A DNA stretch of 64,000 nucleotides from Gloeobacter violaceus PCC 7421 (GTDB lineage: Bacteria > Cyanobacteriota > Cyanobacteriia > Gloeobacterales > Gloeobacteraceae): the NCBI RefSeq assembly GCF_000011385.1, contig NC_005125.1:1674001-1738000 (forward strand). The letters run 5' to 3'. The position numbers and the translations under genes are program-made. Each line of letters starts with the position of its first letter. Position 1 is the stretch's first letter. The notes beneath the pieces are model-generated. The model worked only from the letters and a program-made list of their open reading frames with translations. It was not told where the DNA came from and did no database searches. Positions 30,641 through 37,222 of this stretch are shown here, in pieces.

Positions 30641-31279
30641 GTGGATTTCGACCGCCTCGCCCACCAGTTGCGCAACCCCGTGATGGTGATTCGCACCCTC
30701 GCGCGTCTTGTGGGCAAGCGCCTCGGGCCGGACGATCCCAACCAGGTGCTGCTCGAGCAAATCGCCCGCGAGTGCCGCCGCCTCGACGCGCTCCTGGAGG
30801 ACAAACTGGAGGTGCACGCGCCGGGTCCGGTGCCCTTGGAGCCGCTGGTGGCCGAGGTGGAGCGGGCGGCAAACGCCCTGGCGCGCGAACGGCAGATCCG
30901 CTTCGAGCGGGAAGGCCAGGCGTCCTGTCAGGTCAAAGCCGACGGACGCGCCCTCTACGAAGTGCTGATGAACCTGCTCGACAACGCCTTCAAGTACACC
31001 CCGCCCGGGGGGCAGGTGCGCCTGGAGGTGCGGCCCGGCCAGAATGCCTGCACCATCGACATCGCCGACACCGGCAGCGGCATCGAGGCAGTCGATCTCG
31101 AACGCATCTTCGACGCCTACTACCGCGGCAGCCGCAACGGCGATCGGCCCGGCCGGGGGTTGGGGCTCGCCATCGCCCGAGACCTGATCGAGCAAATGGG
31201 GGGTTCTATCGACGCGCGCAACGGCGAAGGCGGCGGCAGCCGCTTTTGTGTAACCTTACCCACCGCCCAGGAGGACTGA
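30641..31279 (+). CDS. Sensor-less histidine kinase core
   Basis: 212 residues from GTG 30641, one base after the preceding stop. The phospho-acceptor His8 (LAHQLRNPVMVIRTLARL) is only seven residues from the start, so the protein is just HisKA plus HATPase. The ATPase is intact: N-box NLLDNAFKYTPPGG, G1 DTGSGIE, G2 GRGLGLAIA. With no input domain it probably obtains its signal by heterodimerising with the upstream kinase-like protein. It is followed at once by a response regulator gene. Confidence 0.85.
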   Translation: MDFDRLAHQLRNPVMVIRTLARLVGKRLGPDDPNQVLLEQIARECRRLDALLEDKLEVHAPGPVPLEPLVAEVERAANALARERQIRFEREGQASCQVKADGRALYEVLMNLLDNAFKYTPPGGQVRLEVRPGQNACTIDIADTGSGIEAVDLERIFDAYYRGSRNGDRPGRGLGLAIARDLIEQMGGSIDARNGEGGGSRFCVTLPTAQED

Positions 31280-31280
31280 C

Positions 31281-31943
31281 ATGGCCGCTCACCTGTTACT
31301 GGTCGACGACGATCCCGGTATTCGCCTGGCGCTGCAGGCCTATCTGGAGGACGAGGGCTTCGGCGTCACTACCGCCCGCAATGCCATCGAAGGGCTGGAA
31401 CTGGCCGAAAAACACCAGCCGGATCTGGTGATCACCGACATCATGATGCCCCAGGTGGACGGCTACCGGTTCTTGCAGAAATTGCGCGCCCTGCCGCGCT
31501 TTCGCTATACGCCGGTGGTGTTCCTGACCGCCAAGGGCCAGACCGCCGATCGCATCCAGGGCTACCGCCACGGCTGCGACGCCTACATGCCCAAGCCCGG
31601 CGACCCGGAGGAACTGGTGGCCATCGTGCGCAACCTGCTCGATCGCTCTCGCCAGGTCCAATCGGAGATCGTCAGTTTGGTGAGCGAACTGAACCATCGC
31701 CCGGCCCCGGTCGCTATCGAAGCGATCGACCTGGATCTCACCCCCCGCGAGCAGGAGGTGCTGCTGCTGGTCTACGCGGGTCTGATGAACAAAGAAATCG
31801 CCGGCCGCCTGGAGCGCTCCACCCGCAACGTCGAGAAGTATGTCAGCCGCCTGCTCGCCAAGACCGGCACCAGCAGCCGCACCGAGCTGGTGCGCTTCGC
31901 CCTCGAACACGGCCTGGTCAGCCCCGGCAGCGCTGCGGGTTAA
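31281..31943 (+). CDS. NarL/LuxR-type response regulator, Rre1/Ycf29-like
   Basis: 220 residues. Receiver domain (1 to about 125): acidic pocket Asp9-Asp10, phospho-acceptor Asp53 (LVITDIMMPQ), Thr in VVFLTAKG, Lys in YMPKPG. C-terminal LuxR helix-turn-helix: LTPREQEVLLLVYAGLMNKE and RNVEKYVSRLLAKTG. The arrangement and linker resemble cyanobacterial Rre1 (Ycf29), a stress-response regulator. It is located 1 base after the kinase core gene, so it is the likely partner of the split kinase pair. Confidence 0.88.
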   Translation: MAAHLLLVDDDPGIRLALQAYLEDEGFGVTTARNAIEGLELAEKHQPDLVITDIMMPQVDGYRFLQKLRALPRFRYTPVVFLTAKGQTADRIQGYRHGCDAYMPKPGDPEELVAIVRNLLDRSRQVQSEIVSLVSELNHRPAPVAIEAIDLDLTPREQEVLLLVYAGLMNKEIAGRLERSTRNVEKYVSRLLAKTGTSSRTELVRFALEHGLVSPGSAAG

Positions 31944-32025
31944 CACGCCCATCACCTGGCCATGAACTCGGCTTAATGCTTTGCTGGCACAATGGCTGCC
32001 GGTCTGCATGTCCTGGAGTTGTCTG

Positions 32026-34134
32026 ATGCGATACTTTTATTCTGCAGCGCTCGCGGCGACGCTGGCGCTCGCGGCCGTGCCCGCGGCCTGGGCGGCGCCC
32101 AAGGTGGTTTTGATCTCCCTCGACGGCGCCAACGCCTCGATCGCCGACGAGTACTTCAAATCCGGGGTACTCAATGCCAAAACCGGCCTAGGTCTGTTGC
32201 GGCGCACCGGCGCTTTTGCCCGTCAGAACGTGACGATCACCCCGTCGGTGACCGCGCCCGGCCACATCGCGATTGCGACCGGTTCGACGGCGGCCAAAAA
32301 CGACATCAACGCCAACAGCTTTCACCTGATCAAGAGCAACTTCACCCAAAACACCAGCGGCTTCGGCGCTCCCATCGGCGGCTACGACGTCTCCGGCCCG
32401 ACGGTGAGCGAGGAGCCCACCGCCACACCGCTGTGGGTGACCCTGCGCGCGGCGGGCAAGCAGGTGGCCACCGCCACCTGGCCGGGGGGCGACGGCGTCG
32501 ATGTGCTGGAGCCCACCTCCACCAACCTCATTCAGCCTGCTTCGGTGCGCACGGTCGATTACACCGTGCCCTTCGGCTCCTTCGCAGGGGTCGGCGCCAA
32601 AGGCTTCGTGCTCGGCGCGGCGGACTTTGCCGACGGGACGGCGGCCCTGGCAAGCCAGCTTGCGGCGGCAGGTTACGTCTCCTATAGCCCCGTCAAGCAA
32701 AAAACCAGCCTGCTTGAGACTTTCACCGTGGGCGACGTCACCTACAACATTCTGGTGGCGGCTCTGGACGGTACCAACGACCAGGTCGTCAACTACGACA
32801 CGCTGGTGTTCTACGACGAAGCCCAGGGTATCAAGCCCGGTCCCTTCAGCCTGCCTTCCACCGGACCCGCCTACGAGCGCGTGGACGGCAACTCGAGCAA
32901 GTTCTACCTCGAAGGCAGCAGCAACAAAGCCGGTACAGCGTTCTACGTAAGCTTTTTGGCCGGGGATCTTTCGACGGTGCGCTTCGCGCGCTACGCGACC
33001 AACTTTATTCCCCGCAACGCGCCGATTATCGCCTCGGTGGACGACATCAACAACAACGTCGGCTTCTGGGCGCCCCAGCCGGATTTTCGCATTCCGGAGC
33101 GCATCAGCCCCGGCTTTGAGACCTTCCCGGATCTCGAACTCGAAGGCATGTACGCAGATCAGGTGCGCTCGTTCGTCTCCTACCAGACCGACATTGGGTT
33201 ACGGGCCATCTCCCAGAACCCGAACGCCGATCTGGTGATGATCTATATCGAGCAACCGGACGGCTCGGGCCACCAGTTCACCCTCACCGATCCGCGCCAG
33301 CCCACCGACTTCAAAAACCCCAACAGCATCGGCAGCGGTCAAGATCCGGAGAAAAAAGCCCGCTACGCAAGCTACCTCAAGACCGCTTACCAGACAGCCA
33401 GCGACGCTGTGCAGCGCATCATCCAGGCGGTGGGCACCGAGCGCGACGGCACCCCCAAAAGCGATGTGCTCGTCGTCTCCGACCACGGCATGGCCCCTTT
33501 TCACACCGCCGTGAGCATCTTCAACCTGCTCAGCAACAACGGCATCGACACCACCAAGGTGCGGGCAGTGACCACCGGCCCCGCCGCCAACCTCTACATC
33601 AGCCTGCAGGGGCGTGAGGCCGACGGTGTCGTCAGCGAGAGCGAGTATCTAGAGTTGCAAAAGAAAATTGTCGAGGTTCTGCGGGGCGCCGCCGACCCCA
33701 ACCCGACCTACAACTACTCGCTGCCCGGGGGCAAACTGTTCCGGTTCGTCACGCCGCGCCCGACGCCCGAGGGCAAACCGGTGGGCTTCGCCACCAGCGA
33801 CGCCATCGGCCAGGATGCGGGTGATGTCGTGGCGATTCTCAATCCCGGCTACAACTTCGACGGCACCCAGTCGCCGGTGGTCTATCGCCAGGGCGACGAC
33901 ACGACCGTGACCACCCCGGTGCTCTCCCTTGCCAACTTCTACGGCGCCCACGGCTACGATTCGCGTCTCCCCGAAATGAGCGCCATCTTCTACGCCGCGG
34001 GACCGAATATCCGCAAGGGCACTTTCCAGGCGGTGCGCAACATCGACGTGGCTCCGACCATCCTCCAGATTCTGGGAGTGGCCCCAGCCTCCACCGTCCA
34101 GGGCAACGCCCTGAACCGGTTGCTCAAAAAGTAA
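32026..34134 (+). CDS. Exported alkaline phosphatase-superfamily phosphodiesterase/nucleotide pyrophosphatase
   Basis: 702 residues from ATG 32026 with GGAG 8 bases upstream. The signal peptide ends near AAWAAPK. The core matches the type-I phosphodiesterase/nucleotide-pyrophosphatase fold: metal Asp in VVLISLDGANAS, nucleophile region TPSVTAPGHIAIATG, and metal-binding VVSDHGMAPFH late in the protein. A beta-rich insertion (about residues 180-350) sets it apart from the shortest members. It probably hydrolyses phosphodiesters outside the cytoplasm for phosphate scavenging; the exact substrate is unknown. A strong terminator follows. Confidence 0.88.
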   Translation: MRYFYSAALAATLALAAVPAAWAAPKVVLISLDGANASIADEYFKSGVLNAKTGLGLLRRTGAFARQNVTITPSVTAPGHIAIATGSTAAKNDINANSFHLIKSNFTQNTSGFGAPIGGYDVSGPTVSEEPTATPLWVTLRAAGKQVATATWPGGDGVDVLEPTSTNLIQPASVRTVDYTVPFGSFAGVGAKGFVLGAADFADGTAALASQLAAAGYVSYSPVKQKTSLLETFTVGDVTYNILVAALDGTNDQVVNYDTLVFYDEAQGIKPGPFSLPSTGPAYERVDGNSSKFYLEGSSNKAGTAFYVSFLAGDLSTVRFARYATNFIPRNAPIIASVDDINNNVGFWAPQPDFRIPERISPGFETFPDLELEGMYADQVRSFVSYQTDIGLRAISQNPNADLVMIYIEQPDGSGHQFTLTDPRQPTDFKNPNSIGSGQDPEKKARYASYLKTAYQTASDAVQRIIQAVGTERDGTPKSDVLVVSDHGMAPFHTAVSIFNLLSNNGIDTTKVRAVTTGPAANLYISLQGREADGVVSESEYLELQKKIVEVLRGAADPNPTYNYSLPGGKLFRFVTPRPTPEGKPVGFATSDAIGQDAGDVVAILNPGYNFDGTQSPVVYRQGDDTTVTTPVLSLANFYGAHGYDSRLPEMSAIFYAAGPNIRKGTFQAVRNIDVAPTILQILGVAPASTVQGNALNRLLKK

Positions 34135-34156: not shown

Positions 34157-34191
34157 CCGGCGGAGGTGCAGCGCCCCCGCCGGTTTTTTTT
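34157..34191 (+). terminator. Rho-independent terminator after the phosphodiesterase gene
   Basis: CCGGCGG (34157-34163) pairs with CCGCCGG (34177-34183) around a 13-base loop, followed by eight T residues (34184-34191). It separates the phosphodiesterase from the exported-repeat-protein cluster. Confidence 0.9.
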
Positions 34192-34359: not shown

Positions 34360-34701
34360 ATGAACAGCAAAGTGTTTCAGGCGTCGGCACTGGCGTTGAT
34401 TCTGGGAGTCGCGTTTTCCGGAGCGGCCAGCGCCGATGTCACCCAGACGGCCGTGGGCATCCAGCAGAGCTACCAGTCGCAGTACCTGGAGGGCCGGGGC
34501 AACCAGACGGGCGTCAGTGTGAGCAACCTGGGCCAGTTCCAGATGGGTAGGCCGTCCTACCGGGGCGAAAACATCCAGCAGACCGCCGCCGGGGTGCAGA
34601 TGACCGAGCAGGCCCAGCAGGGCTTCGGTCGCGTCAACCAGACGATGGTGGACGTGCGCGAGATGCGCCAGCGCCAGTTCAACCGCCTGCCGCGCCGTTA
34701 G
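34360..34701 (+). CDS. Exported Gln-rich repeat protein A (curlin-like)
   Basis: 113 residues from ATG 34360 with AGGAG about 10 bases upstream. The signal peptide is SALALILGVAFSGAASA. The mature part consists of four 14-residue units of the form xQTxVxVxxxxQxQ: TQTAVGIQQSYQSQ, NQTGVSVSNLGQFQ, QQTAAGVQMTEQAQ, NQTMVDVREMRQRQ. Evenly spaced Gln/Asn and alternating small/hydrophobic residues suggest a beta-solenoid or amyloid-like fibre subunit. The formal curlin repeat is not matched exactly. It is first of four adjacent exported-protein genes, 10 bases before the second. Confidence 0.8.
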   Translation: MNSKVFQASALALILGVAFSGAASADVTQTAVGIQQSYQSQYLEGRGNQTGVSVSNLGQFQMGRPSYRGENIQQTAAGVQMTEQAQQGFGRVNQTMVDVREMRQRQFNRLPRR

Positions 34702-34711
34702 GAGTGAAACA

Positions 34712-35062
34712 ATGAGACCTCTTACCTGGTTTATGGTCCTGGCATTGGCGGTTGCCCTACCGGGGGCGGCCTGGGCGGGCACGATCGAAGTCGATCCGAG
34801 TGTGCAGACGGCCGTGGGCGTCCAGAACGCCCAGCAGGTCCAGCTCGGCTTCGGGGTGCGCGAGCAGACGGGCACCATCGTTCAGCAGCAGCCCCAGTAC
34901 CAGTTCACTTCCCGGCCCCGCCGCGGTCCCACCCGCTACAACTACCCCGGAAGCGACGATATCCGCGTCGCTCCTGGAGTCCAGACGGCCGTAGGGGTCC
35001 AGAATGCCCAGCAGGTCCAGTTGGGCCTGCCCGGCTTCGGCCGCTACCGCGACCGCAACTGA
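34712..35062 (+). CDS. Exported Gln-rich repeat protein B (curlin-like)
   Basis: 116 residues with a signal peptide (LTWFMVLALAVALPGAAWAG). It carries three copies of the 14-residue unit seen in protein A: VQTAVGVQNAQQVQ twice, almost identical at DNA level (near 34804 and 34980), and EQTGTIVQQQPQYQ between them. A basic, aromatic linker (TSRPRRGPTRYNYP) separates the copies. The arrangement suggests internal duplication and a structural or nucleating role beside protein A. Ten bases separate it from protein A. Confidence 0.8.
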   Translation: MRPLTWFMVLALAVALPGAAWAGTIEVDPSVQTAVGVQNAQQVQLGFGVREQTGTIVQQQPQYQFTSRPRRGPTRYNYPGSDDIRVAPGVQTAVGVQNAQQVQLGLPGFGRYRDRN

Positions 35063-35155
35063 CGCTCTGTCGCGTTTCCCTCTACGTGTTCGCCGGGGGC
35101 GGTGTTTCAGGGGGCACCCTCCCCGGCCTGCAGCCCATTTCTTTGGAGAACACCG

Positions 35156-35608
35156 ATGCTACGAACCCTCTGCCCGGTACTCTCGGCGGGCCTGCTGCTG
35201 GTGGCCGTCGCCCCCGCCGCCCAGGCCGACCGGATTATCATTCCGGTTTTTCAAAGCCAGACGTCGATCATCCGCGGCACCCAGGCCCAGGGCGCCGGGG
35301 GCGGCTACGGCGGTACGAGCCAGTCGGGTGCGCTCAATCAGGCGAGCGGCCAGTCCCAGACGGTGAACGTCTACGTGCCGGAGGACTTCGACGGCAACGT
35401 GACCACCGTCGATCTGGGGGATCGCAACCGCCGGTTTGGCCGCGACGACCGCTTCGGCCGCGACGATCGCTTTGAGCGCGAGCCGGGCGACTGGCGCGAG
35501 CGCTTCGAGCGCACCAAGCGCTTCGGCCGCGAGCGCGACGACCTCGAACGCCCCGAACTGCACCGCCGCGAAGGCCCGAACAACCGCCGGGGTGATCGCG
35601 ATGGCTAG
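35156..35608 (+). CDS. Exported protein C with Arg/Asp-rich low-complexity tail
   Basis: 150 residues from ATG 35156 with GGAG 8 bases upstream. The signal peptide is LRTLCPVLSAGLLLVAVAPA followed by AQADR. A Gly/Ser/Gln-rich middle (GTSQSGALNQASGQSQTVNV) precedes a highly charged tail built on repeated RFGRDDRF and RERFERTKRFGRE units. No enzyme motif is present. It may be a charged accessory or matrix component of the repeat-protein cluster. It overlaps the next gene by 8 bases. Confidence 0.75.
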   Translation: MLRTLCPVLSAGLLLVAVAPAAQADRIIIPVFQSQTSIIRGTQAQGAGGGYGGTSQSGALNQASGQSQTVNVYVPEDFDGNVTTVDLGDRNRRFGRDDRFGRDDRFEREPGDWRERFERTKRFGRERDDLERPELHRREGPNNRRGDRDG

Positions 35609-36167
35609 AAGTACCTGGCTCCTCAGTCTGCTAGCCGGCAGCTTCCTGGGGGGCGCCGGGGCCGCCGCCCAGGTCTCGGTGCAGGTGAACGGCACCGATG
35701 TCCAGGTCCAGACGGGCACCGGTGCGGTCTCAGTGAACGGCGGCCGGGTCAGTACCAACGGCTACGGCACCTCAGGCACGACCTACCAGCGCAGCTATCA
35801 ATACCAGGATTCCGACGGCTACAGTGAGTGGAGTCTCACGGGCGGCGGTTCCGGCCGCTACTACCTGGTGGTGCAGCCGCCGCCGGGGCGGCTCCTCAGG
35901 GGCCGGGTGCGCCTGAACGGCCGGACGCTCGCCAACCTGAACAACCGCAGCAGTCTGGTATTGCCCCTGGCGGGCTGGTTGCGCCCCGGCCCCAACCGCC
36001 TGGATCTCGATCTGGGCGTACCGGGCGCTTCGGTGGGCCTTGCGGGCAACACCGACAGCCGATCGCCCTACTTTCGCGGGGGCAGACTCTACGGCTCCCA
36101 GCGCACCTGGCTGCAGCAGAGCGGCGGCGGCCGCTACCGGACGATCGTGCTCACGCTGGACGATTAG
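35601..36167 (+). CDS. Exported beta-rich protein D
   Basis: 188 residues from ATG 35601, overlapping protein C by 8 bases. The signal peptide is ARSTWLLSLLAGSFLGGAGA. The mature protein starts with alternating Val/Gln/Thr strands (AQVSVQVNGTDVQVQTGTGA) and a Gly/Ser/Tyr-rich segment, then a folded beta-domain (YYLVVQPPPGRLLRGRVRLN, PGPNRLDLDLGVPGASVGLA). No known family. Translational coupling to C makes it part of the same functional set. Confidence 0.75.
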   Translation: MARSTWLLSLLAGSFLGGAGAAAQVSVQVNGTDVQVQTGTGAVSVNGGRVSTNGYGTSGTTYQRSYQYQDSDGYSEWSLTGGGSGRYYLVVQPPPGRLLRGRVRLNGRTLANLNNRSSLVLPLAGWLRPGPNRLDLDLGVPGASVGLAGNTDSRSPYFRGGRLYGSQRTWLQQSGGGRYRTIVLTLDD

Positions 36168-36202: not shown

Positions 36203-36949
36203 ATGACTTTTGTGCTGCCCTCCGTCACCTACCCGAGCAGCGACGGAGAACCCGTGGCCGAGACGTTCGATCACCTCTACGCCATCCTGGTGACGCTGGA
36301 GGTGCTCAGGCAATACTTGAGCGGCCAGCAAGCCACGGTGCTTGCCAACCAGTTTCTCTACTACGCCCAGGGATTTCCCCGGCTGCGGGTGGCCCCGGAC
36401 GTGATGGTGATTTTCAGCGTCGCACCCGGCGGACGGGATAATTACAAAATCTGGGAGGAGGGCCAGGTTCCGGCGGCGATCTTCGAAATGACCTCGGCGG
36501 GCACCCAGCAAAACGACACGGTCGAGAAGAAGCACCTCTACGAGCGTTTGGGTGTGCGGGAGTACTGGCTATTCGATCCGAGGGGCGAATGGGTCGAAGG
36601 CCGACTGCAGGGATATCGTCTGCAACCGGTAGAAGTGATGGGCGAAGTGGTTGAGGTGTACCTGCCGATCACCGACGGTCGCAGCGCAGTTCTGGGCTTG
36701 CGCCTGCAGGTAGAAGACCGGTTGCCGGCGTTTTACCGGGAGGACAGCGGCGAGAAGTTGCTTATCCCGGCGGAACTGGCGGAGGAATTGCACCGTACCG
36801 CAGCGCTCCTGGAGCAGGAGCGCCGGGCGAGGGAGCAAGAGCGCCAGGGCAGGGAACAAGAACGTCGGGCCAGAGAACAGGCCGAAAGACGGGCGGCGGC
36901 ACTGGCTGAGCGCCTGCGGGAACTGGGAGTGGATCCGGACACGGTTTAG
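36203..36949 (+). CDS. Uma2-family (DUF820) protein with charged coiled-coil tail
   Basis: 248 residues from ATG 36203. The Uma2 core shows RLRVAPDVMVIFSVAP, AIFEMTSAGTQQNDTVEKKH and LGVREYWLFDPRGEW, matching the nuclease-like D...E-xK region (FEMTSAGT in place of the common LEVLSPST). The C-terminal 50 residues are RAREQERQGREQERRAREQ heptads ending RLRELGVDPDTV. That tail also occurs in Uma2 proteins at 6955 and 49402. It is unrelated to the exported cluster just upstream. Confidence 0.87.
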   Translation: MTFVLPSVTYPSSDGEPVAETFDHLYAILVTLEVLRQYLSGQQATVLANQFLYYAQGFPRLRVAPDVMVIFSVAPGGRDNYKIWEEGQVPAAIFEMTSAGTQQNDTVEKKHLYERLGVREYWLFDPRGEWVEGRLQGYRLQPVEVMGEVVEVYLPITDGRSAVLGLRLQVEDRLPAFYREDSGEKLLIPAELAEELHRTAALLEQERRAREQERQGREQERRAREQAERRAAALAERLRELGVDPDTV

Positions 36950-37067: not shown

Positions 37068-37114
37068 GTCTTTCGCCGCAGCGGCACGGGTGGAATACCC
37101 CGCGAGTGGTTCCT

Positions 37115-37201
37115 GGAGAGATGGCCGAGTGGTCGAAGGCGCAGCACTGGAAATGCTGTATAGGGGCAACTCTATCGAGGGTTCGAATCCCTCTCTCTCC
37201 G
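37115..37201 (+). tRNA. trnS-GGA: tRNA-Ser (anticodon GGA)
   Basis: Acceptor stem GGAGAGA (37115-37121) pairs with TCTCTCC (37194-37200), and G37201 is the discriminator. The D-arm is GCCGAGTGGTCGAAGGC and the anticodon stem-loop is CAGCA CTGGAAA TGCTG, giving GGA. A long variable arm (TATAGGGGCAACTCTATC) and the T-arm GAGGG TTCGAAT CCCTC complete a class II tRNA-Ser. The 3' CCA is not encoded. It decodes UCC/UCU. Confidence 0.97.
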
Positions 37202-37222
37202 TTTTTTGTGGAAGCTTGTGCC

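Follow-up and report, generated by a model that had tools for sequence, protein, structure and literature searches.

Four adjoining genes of Gloeobacter violaceus PCC 7421, here called A to D, are probably, with somewhat more confidence than doubt on our part, the form taken in Gloeobacter by a secreted cyanobacterial cluster, apparently undescribed, that functions in the manner of curli and yields a cross-beta fibre or surface matrix. Support is strong for A to D as a conserved system and moderate for the system as a fibre. The genes lie in a stretch of 64,000 nucleotides (NC_005125.1, positions 1,674,001 to 1,738,000), referred to below as the window, in whose numbering the features are given (Table 1).

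Gene set in the window and its conservation in Gloeobacterales

Coordinates, order and spacing of the genes were as the initial annotation had given them, with 10 bases between A and B and an overlap of C and D, which measures 8 bases; the gap between B and C is 93 bases. The signal peptides claimed for all four products were also recovered by eye, each protein having a hydrophobic N terminus followed by a signal-peptidase-I-like site (ASA/D, AWA/G, AQA/D and AAAQ in A, B, C and D, respectively). The hairpin upstream of A had a folding energy of -24.5 kcal/mol (z -3.1), and a terminator consensus scan missed it. Because this terminator-like structure stands between the phosphodiesterase gene and A, the four genes probably start their own transcript. 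Upstream of the cluster, the window also holds genes for a histidine kinase, a LuxR-type response regulator and a secreted type I phosphodiesterase (30641-34134), which are conserved in close relatives. Downstream of D lie a putative endonuclease of the Uma2 type with a coiled-coil-like tail (36203-36949) and tRNA-Ser(GGA) (37114-37202).

Table 1 Cluster genes and the adjoining hairpin, in window positions
Feature	Position	Strand	Description	Basis
Gene A	34360..34701	+	Exported protein of 113 aa; four Q-strand units in two repeats of 45 residues; main repeat subunit (putative)	Conserved in seven relatives; scores above shuffled control against the profile of typical cyanobacterial A
Gene B	34712..35062	+	Exported 116-aa protein with a 59-residue duplication; A paralogue; putative second subunit or nucleator	
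Gene C	35156..35608	+	Exported 150-aa protein with one repeat module, conserved VNVYVPE motif and lineage-specific Arg/Asp tail	
Gene D	35601..36167	+	Exported 188-aa protein with N-terminal V-x-V strand repeats and a C-terminal beta-sandwich; marker conserved across cyanobacteria	
Hairpin then eight T	34157..34191	+	Probable terminator of the phosphodiesterase gene that lies upstream	Read by eye

In a single-protein search, A was found in six other Gloeobacterales genomes and in one distant cyanobacterium (G027); relatives of the window genome include Aphanocapsa lilacina HA4352-LM1 and Gloeobacterales ES-bin-141. The order A-B-C-D was kept in the Gloeobacterales relatives and in G027, and by reading in G419, a second distant cyanobacterium. 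The contig of G006 stops after C, and no convincing cluster member was seen in the Gloeobacterales genomes G007 and G008. The upstream neighbour is a secreted phosphodiesterase gene in G000 to G004 and an ABC1-type kinase gene in G005, so that upstream genes are shared in close relatives only and A to D are the unit. Values of dN/dS lay between 0.08 and 0.46 in 11 of 12 gene comparisons, a mark of purifying selection; the twelfth, 0.77 for A, rested on very few substitutions. A to D are four real conserved genes, and the support for this is strong.

Searches of Pfam, NCBIfam and PDB sequences with A to D and with wider profiles returned no credible match; weak matches of the D profile to RNA polymerase and of B to L11 methyltransferase were judged to be chance. 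Phylum scans with the C and A profiles gave no convincing match in any sampled genome other than the window genome. A match from these scans in G365 had no secreted repeat gene on inspection. A match at 4152680 in the window genome was a chance frame. There was no match in viral contigs or in a plasmid search with A, nor in 377 genomes queried with a G027 subunit paralogue, a search run without a positive control. In the open-access literature, to which the search extended, we found no description of this A-D cluster; its novelty is provisional, and we regard it as an apparently undescribed cyanobacterial secreted system.

Repeat design and predicted structure

Autocorrelation gave a 45-residue duplication as the strongest period of A (z 7.8) and a 59-residue duplication as that of B (z 7.5), with 0/500 shuffles in each case. 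The element Q-T-x-V-x-V-x4-Q-x-Q occurred in A in four copies, at 29, 49, 74 and 94, under a relaxed pattern (the strict pattern fits two), and in B as two exact copies and a degenerate one; the Gln content of the mature A and B proteins was 17 to 19 percent. The 14-residue unit described initially, with four copies in A and three in B, is thus present, the third B copy being degenerate, but given the 45- and 59-residue periods it is better taken as one strand-like element inside a larger repeat. The Arg/Asp repeat tail described in C was likewise present (6-residue period, P 0.006) but is conserved in close relatives only.

Mature regions were compared as profiles by hhalign against column-shuffled controls (0/60 for each pair). 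Scores were 37.2 for A-B, 31.6 for A-C and 25.4 for B-C, against shuffled-column maxima of 17.7, 13.9 and 22.5, respectively, and the A profile matched B directly (E 6.8e-6). By these profile comparisons A, B and C are paralogues; D was without clear kinship to them. A sub-threshold match to RHIM, an amyloid core motif, was seen in B residues 96-105 near VQNAQQVQLG (13.2 bits with the Pfam model, below its cut-off of 20) and likewise in the B protein of G027, and is likely chance.

The AlphaFold model of A contained four long strands (27-44, 49-62, 72-89 and 94-107), at a confidence too low to interpret (pLDDT 48, pTM 0.20, shallow alignment). For D, a C-terminal beta-sandwich was predicted with pLDDT near 88 over residues 91-140, and the N-terminal strand repeats with low confidence; with its signal-peptide-like N terminus, D fits the earlier description of a beta-rich secreted protein. 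Compared with the PDB by Foldseek and VIA-align, the sandwich most resembled generic Ig-like and glycosidase jelly-roll sandwich domains (best Z 5.5), and no nameable structural relative emerged. The D protein of G004 (L026:9062-9370) is missing the middle portion of the sandwich and keeps the N-terminal strand repeats and the last strand.

Wider cyanobacterial cluster traced through D

The D profile was extended with the D protein of a second G027 cluster and used to scan 387 genomes of the class. Relatives at E<=1e-4 were found in 41 of these genomes, about a tenth, from 11 families; five are Gloeobacter relatives. Short exported Q/N-repeat genes adjoined D on the same strand in 18 of the 20 loci read, and a C-position gene lay directly upstream of D in 17 (16 by model, one by eye). 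The usual order was A (often two), sometimes a gene X, then C and D, followed in seven loci by a coiled-coil protein E. D stood by itself at L097, and the sequence of L094 begins too late to show A. The profile-profile value for D, 3.5e-32, is inflated because both alignments share members. With a D profile freed of Gloeobacter-type members, all six Gloeobacter-type D proteins ranked above every shuffled decoy (weakest 0.004 vs best decoy 0.021; window D 3.5e-4). On this profile evidence the homology of D across cyanobacteria is robust. D and the neighbouring Q/N-repeat genes are conserved together across 11 cyanobacterial families. The separate X gene of other cyanobacteria aligned over 23 columns with the N-terminal end of Gloeobacter D (23.8 vs shuffled maximum 12.0), which suggests a possible gene fusion with X.

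A typical A protein contains two modules bearing G-x-x-N-x3-Q-x3-Q, and the pattern G..N...Q...Q occurred 23 times in 14 typical subunits, against 0.2 in shuffles. The minimal curli repeat X6QXGX2NX10 also occurred 23 times (3.6 +/- 1.9 in shuffles) across 35 proteins, some of them C proteins, and was concentrated in L084, L085 and L093 with three or four copies per A protein. The most curlin-like subunits scored 22.8 against CsgA/B, vs 10.7 +/- 1.8 for shuffles (maximum 14.9, 0/60), at an hhalign probability of only 7 percent; Gloeobacter A itself had no relation to CsgA/B by profile. The likeness to curlin in Gln/Asn spacing, remarked on initially, has therefore grown stronger, because cyanobacterial relatives carry literal curli-type repeats. 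Compared profile to profile with typical A, Gloeobacter A scored 28.2 (shuffled maximum 17.3). When typical A proteins served as the query of a plain profile search, Gloeobacter A was not separated from composition-matched shuffled decoys, so gene order carries much of the link, and it is on profile-profile comparison plus gene order that we take Gloeobacter A as the putative counterpart of typical cyanobacterial A. Gloeobacter C corresponds to the other cyanobacterial C proteins by position only.

Plasmid pP880101 of Rippkaea orientalis PCC 8801 carries three tandem subunit-gene copies together with X, C and D, and a larger multi-module protein is encoded there across the start of the record; plasmid pSTA7437.02 of Stanieria PCC 7437 carries C, D and E; in both, all cluster genes are annotated as hypothetical. 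The Rippkaea tandem copies (L114:2854-3885; NC_011721.1 49853-50884) encode an identical protein with a 369-base period, and successive coding copies differ by one or two bases.

Several neighbours recurred or stood out. In the second G027 cluster (L043:5687-10832, contig C18), genes for a LuxR-type regulator and for A-like, B-like and D-like proteins are followed by one for a TolC-type outer-membrane efflux protein, a possible export partner that we treat as a lead only. E proteins (L086:3028-3594, L085:8015-8509, L092:2366-2863 and others) have an N-terminal Q/N strand motif, a conserved NTENDFG...QPGR block and a C-terminal coiled coil; they adjoin D and are possible anchors. A CHASE2-domain gene, possibly a sensor module, and a small exported protein adjoin the cluster in two unrelated genomes (L029:3893-7462 and L082:9605-11918, the latter assigned by sequence resemblance only), and the L029 neighbourhood also holds a LuxR-type response regulator. 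LuxR-type regulators lie near three of the loci. One type of Ser/Thr-kinase gene adjoins the cluster beyond the A genes in L084, L085 and L093 (Pfam-tested in L085 only).

Proposed assembly, rival readings and known systems

We propose that the A-D proteins are taken across the inner membrane by Sec export, which their signal peptides make likely, and would then leave the cell by some outer-membrane route. Outside the cell, the Q/N-rich strand-turn-strand modules would stack to give a cross-beta, amyloid-like fibre or a matrix at the surface, as suggested by the repeat design and by the known role of Gln/Asn, which are conserved in the stacked repeats of curli CsgA and of FapC (PMC3521004, PMC12392863). 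The main subunit would be A. B would serve as a second subunit or as the nucleator, the single-module C as a cap or linker, and the beta-sandwich protein D in an accessory part, as chaperone, anchor or tip; the fibre may have an adhesive or matrix function. Of the new surface-fibre or matrix system put forward initially, the coherent exported multi-gene system is strongly supported, whereas its fibre or amyloid function is something we infer, the model of A having a pLDDT of 48. More tentatively, and with rather more doubt than belief, we suggest that cyanobacteria may own a functional amyloid parallel to curli, in Gloeobacterales and ten other families, exported without CsgG or a consistently adjoining channel gene and perhaps by way of a shared channel of the TolC type, to which one G027 locus points.

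No outer-membrane exporter gene consistently adjoined the cluster. This lack of a linked exporter favours another reading, in which A to D make up a folded beta-rich envelope component (a periplasmic or outer-membrane-attached coat, sheath or S-layer-associated component) instead of a polymerising amyloid-like fibre, and the repeats form a small beta-roll or a surface that binds polysaccharide or peptidoglycan. A small member with a single module, such as C, has no need to polymerise, and the resemblance of the D sandwich to Ig-like and glycosidase jelly-roll domains, although low in Z, points the same way. However, the cluster has features typical of polymerising subunits, namely Q/N ladders that turn at Gly-x-x-Asn, subunit genes in tandem and several repeat proteins that are paralogues within one cluster, and we consider an envelope component unlikely, if worth keeping in view. 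A small secreted effector, a bacteriocin-like or a signalling system in which the repeats would act as motifs for recognition seems highly improbable. The matches that speak for it, to cyanobacterial bacteriocin-like models and of B to the RHIM amyloid-signalling motif, are very weak and sub-threshold, all short and far below curated cut-offs, and the Sec-type signal peptides come with no double-glycine leader and no immunity or modification genes that we could see.

Curli proper, as a divergent csg system whose CsgG is encoded away from the cluster, would fit the literal curli repeats of some relatives, the LuxR-type regulators near three loci (compare CsgD) and the beta-sandwich protein at the operon end (compare CsgC). 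CsgG, however, was found in none of ten Gloeobacter-type and related genomes, the E. coli control being positive. It stood neither beside the cluster, as had been noted at the outset, nor elsewhere in the window genome, and no CsgE or CsgF gene was recognised next to the clusters. In other genomes it occurred in 5/35 with the cluster and 5/28 without, showing no association. The curlin Pfam model PF07012 gave no match above cut-off in A to D, in the relatives scanned or in the ten genomes searched, and the D profile showed no sequence relation to CsgC (probability 0.5 percent). The missing CsgG largely refutes a true csg system, to which we give scarcely any credence. Taken together, these results place the likeness to curli in the layout of parts, and the best reading is that the cluster is analogous to curli, not demonstrably homologous.

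In the libraries searched, no cluster component has a name and all stand as hypothetical proteins, though they are conserved across cyanobacteria, and this conservation reaches the earliest-branching, thylakoid-less cyanobacterial line. If fibres are built, mats, biofilms and surface attachment would have a matrix system that spans the phylum. Curli-type assembly would then have been solved a second time, and the cluster would offer a test case of how amyloid subunits exit a Gram-negative cell without CsgG.

Like curli (csgBAC-csgDEFG), the cluster encodes short exported proteins built from repeated Q/N/G modules of the strand-turn-strand kind. Two paralogous subunits adjoin each other, a small beta-sandwich protein follows downstream, some loci have LuxR-type regulators nearby, and some cyanobacterial members carry the literal X6QXGX2NX10 repeat. 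The cluster differs from curli in that the Gloeobacter A and B modules are without QxGxxN, no CsgG and no curlin-model match were found, and D is unrelated to CsgC by sequence. In the Fap amyloid of Pseudomonas (FapB/FapC/FapF), too, the secreted subunits are paralogous, their repeats are imperfect and their Gln/Asn residues are conserved (PMC12392863). By description it is set apart, since the cluster proteins are much shorter and without long linkers, and no FapF-type gene was recognised beside the window cluster. EbfG1-4 of Synechococcus elongatus, the nearest system in the literature searched, have leaders of the double-glycine type, whereas A to D carry Sec-like signals. The EbfG hotspot motif AxNI[GS] (PMC9981879) was absent from window A to D as read from the sequences. 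As with A to D, EbfG1-4 are encoded in an operon of four small secreted cyanobacterial proteins, of which EbfG1-3 assemble into amyloid with a role in the biofilm matrix (PMC9981879).
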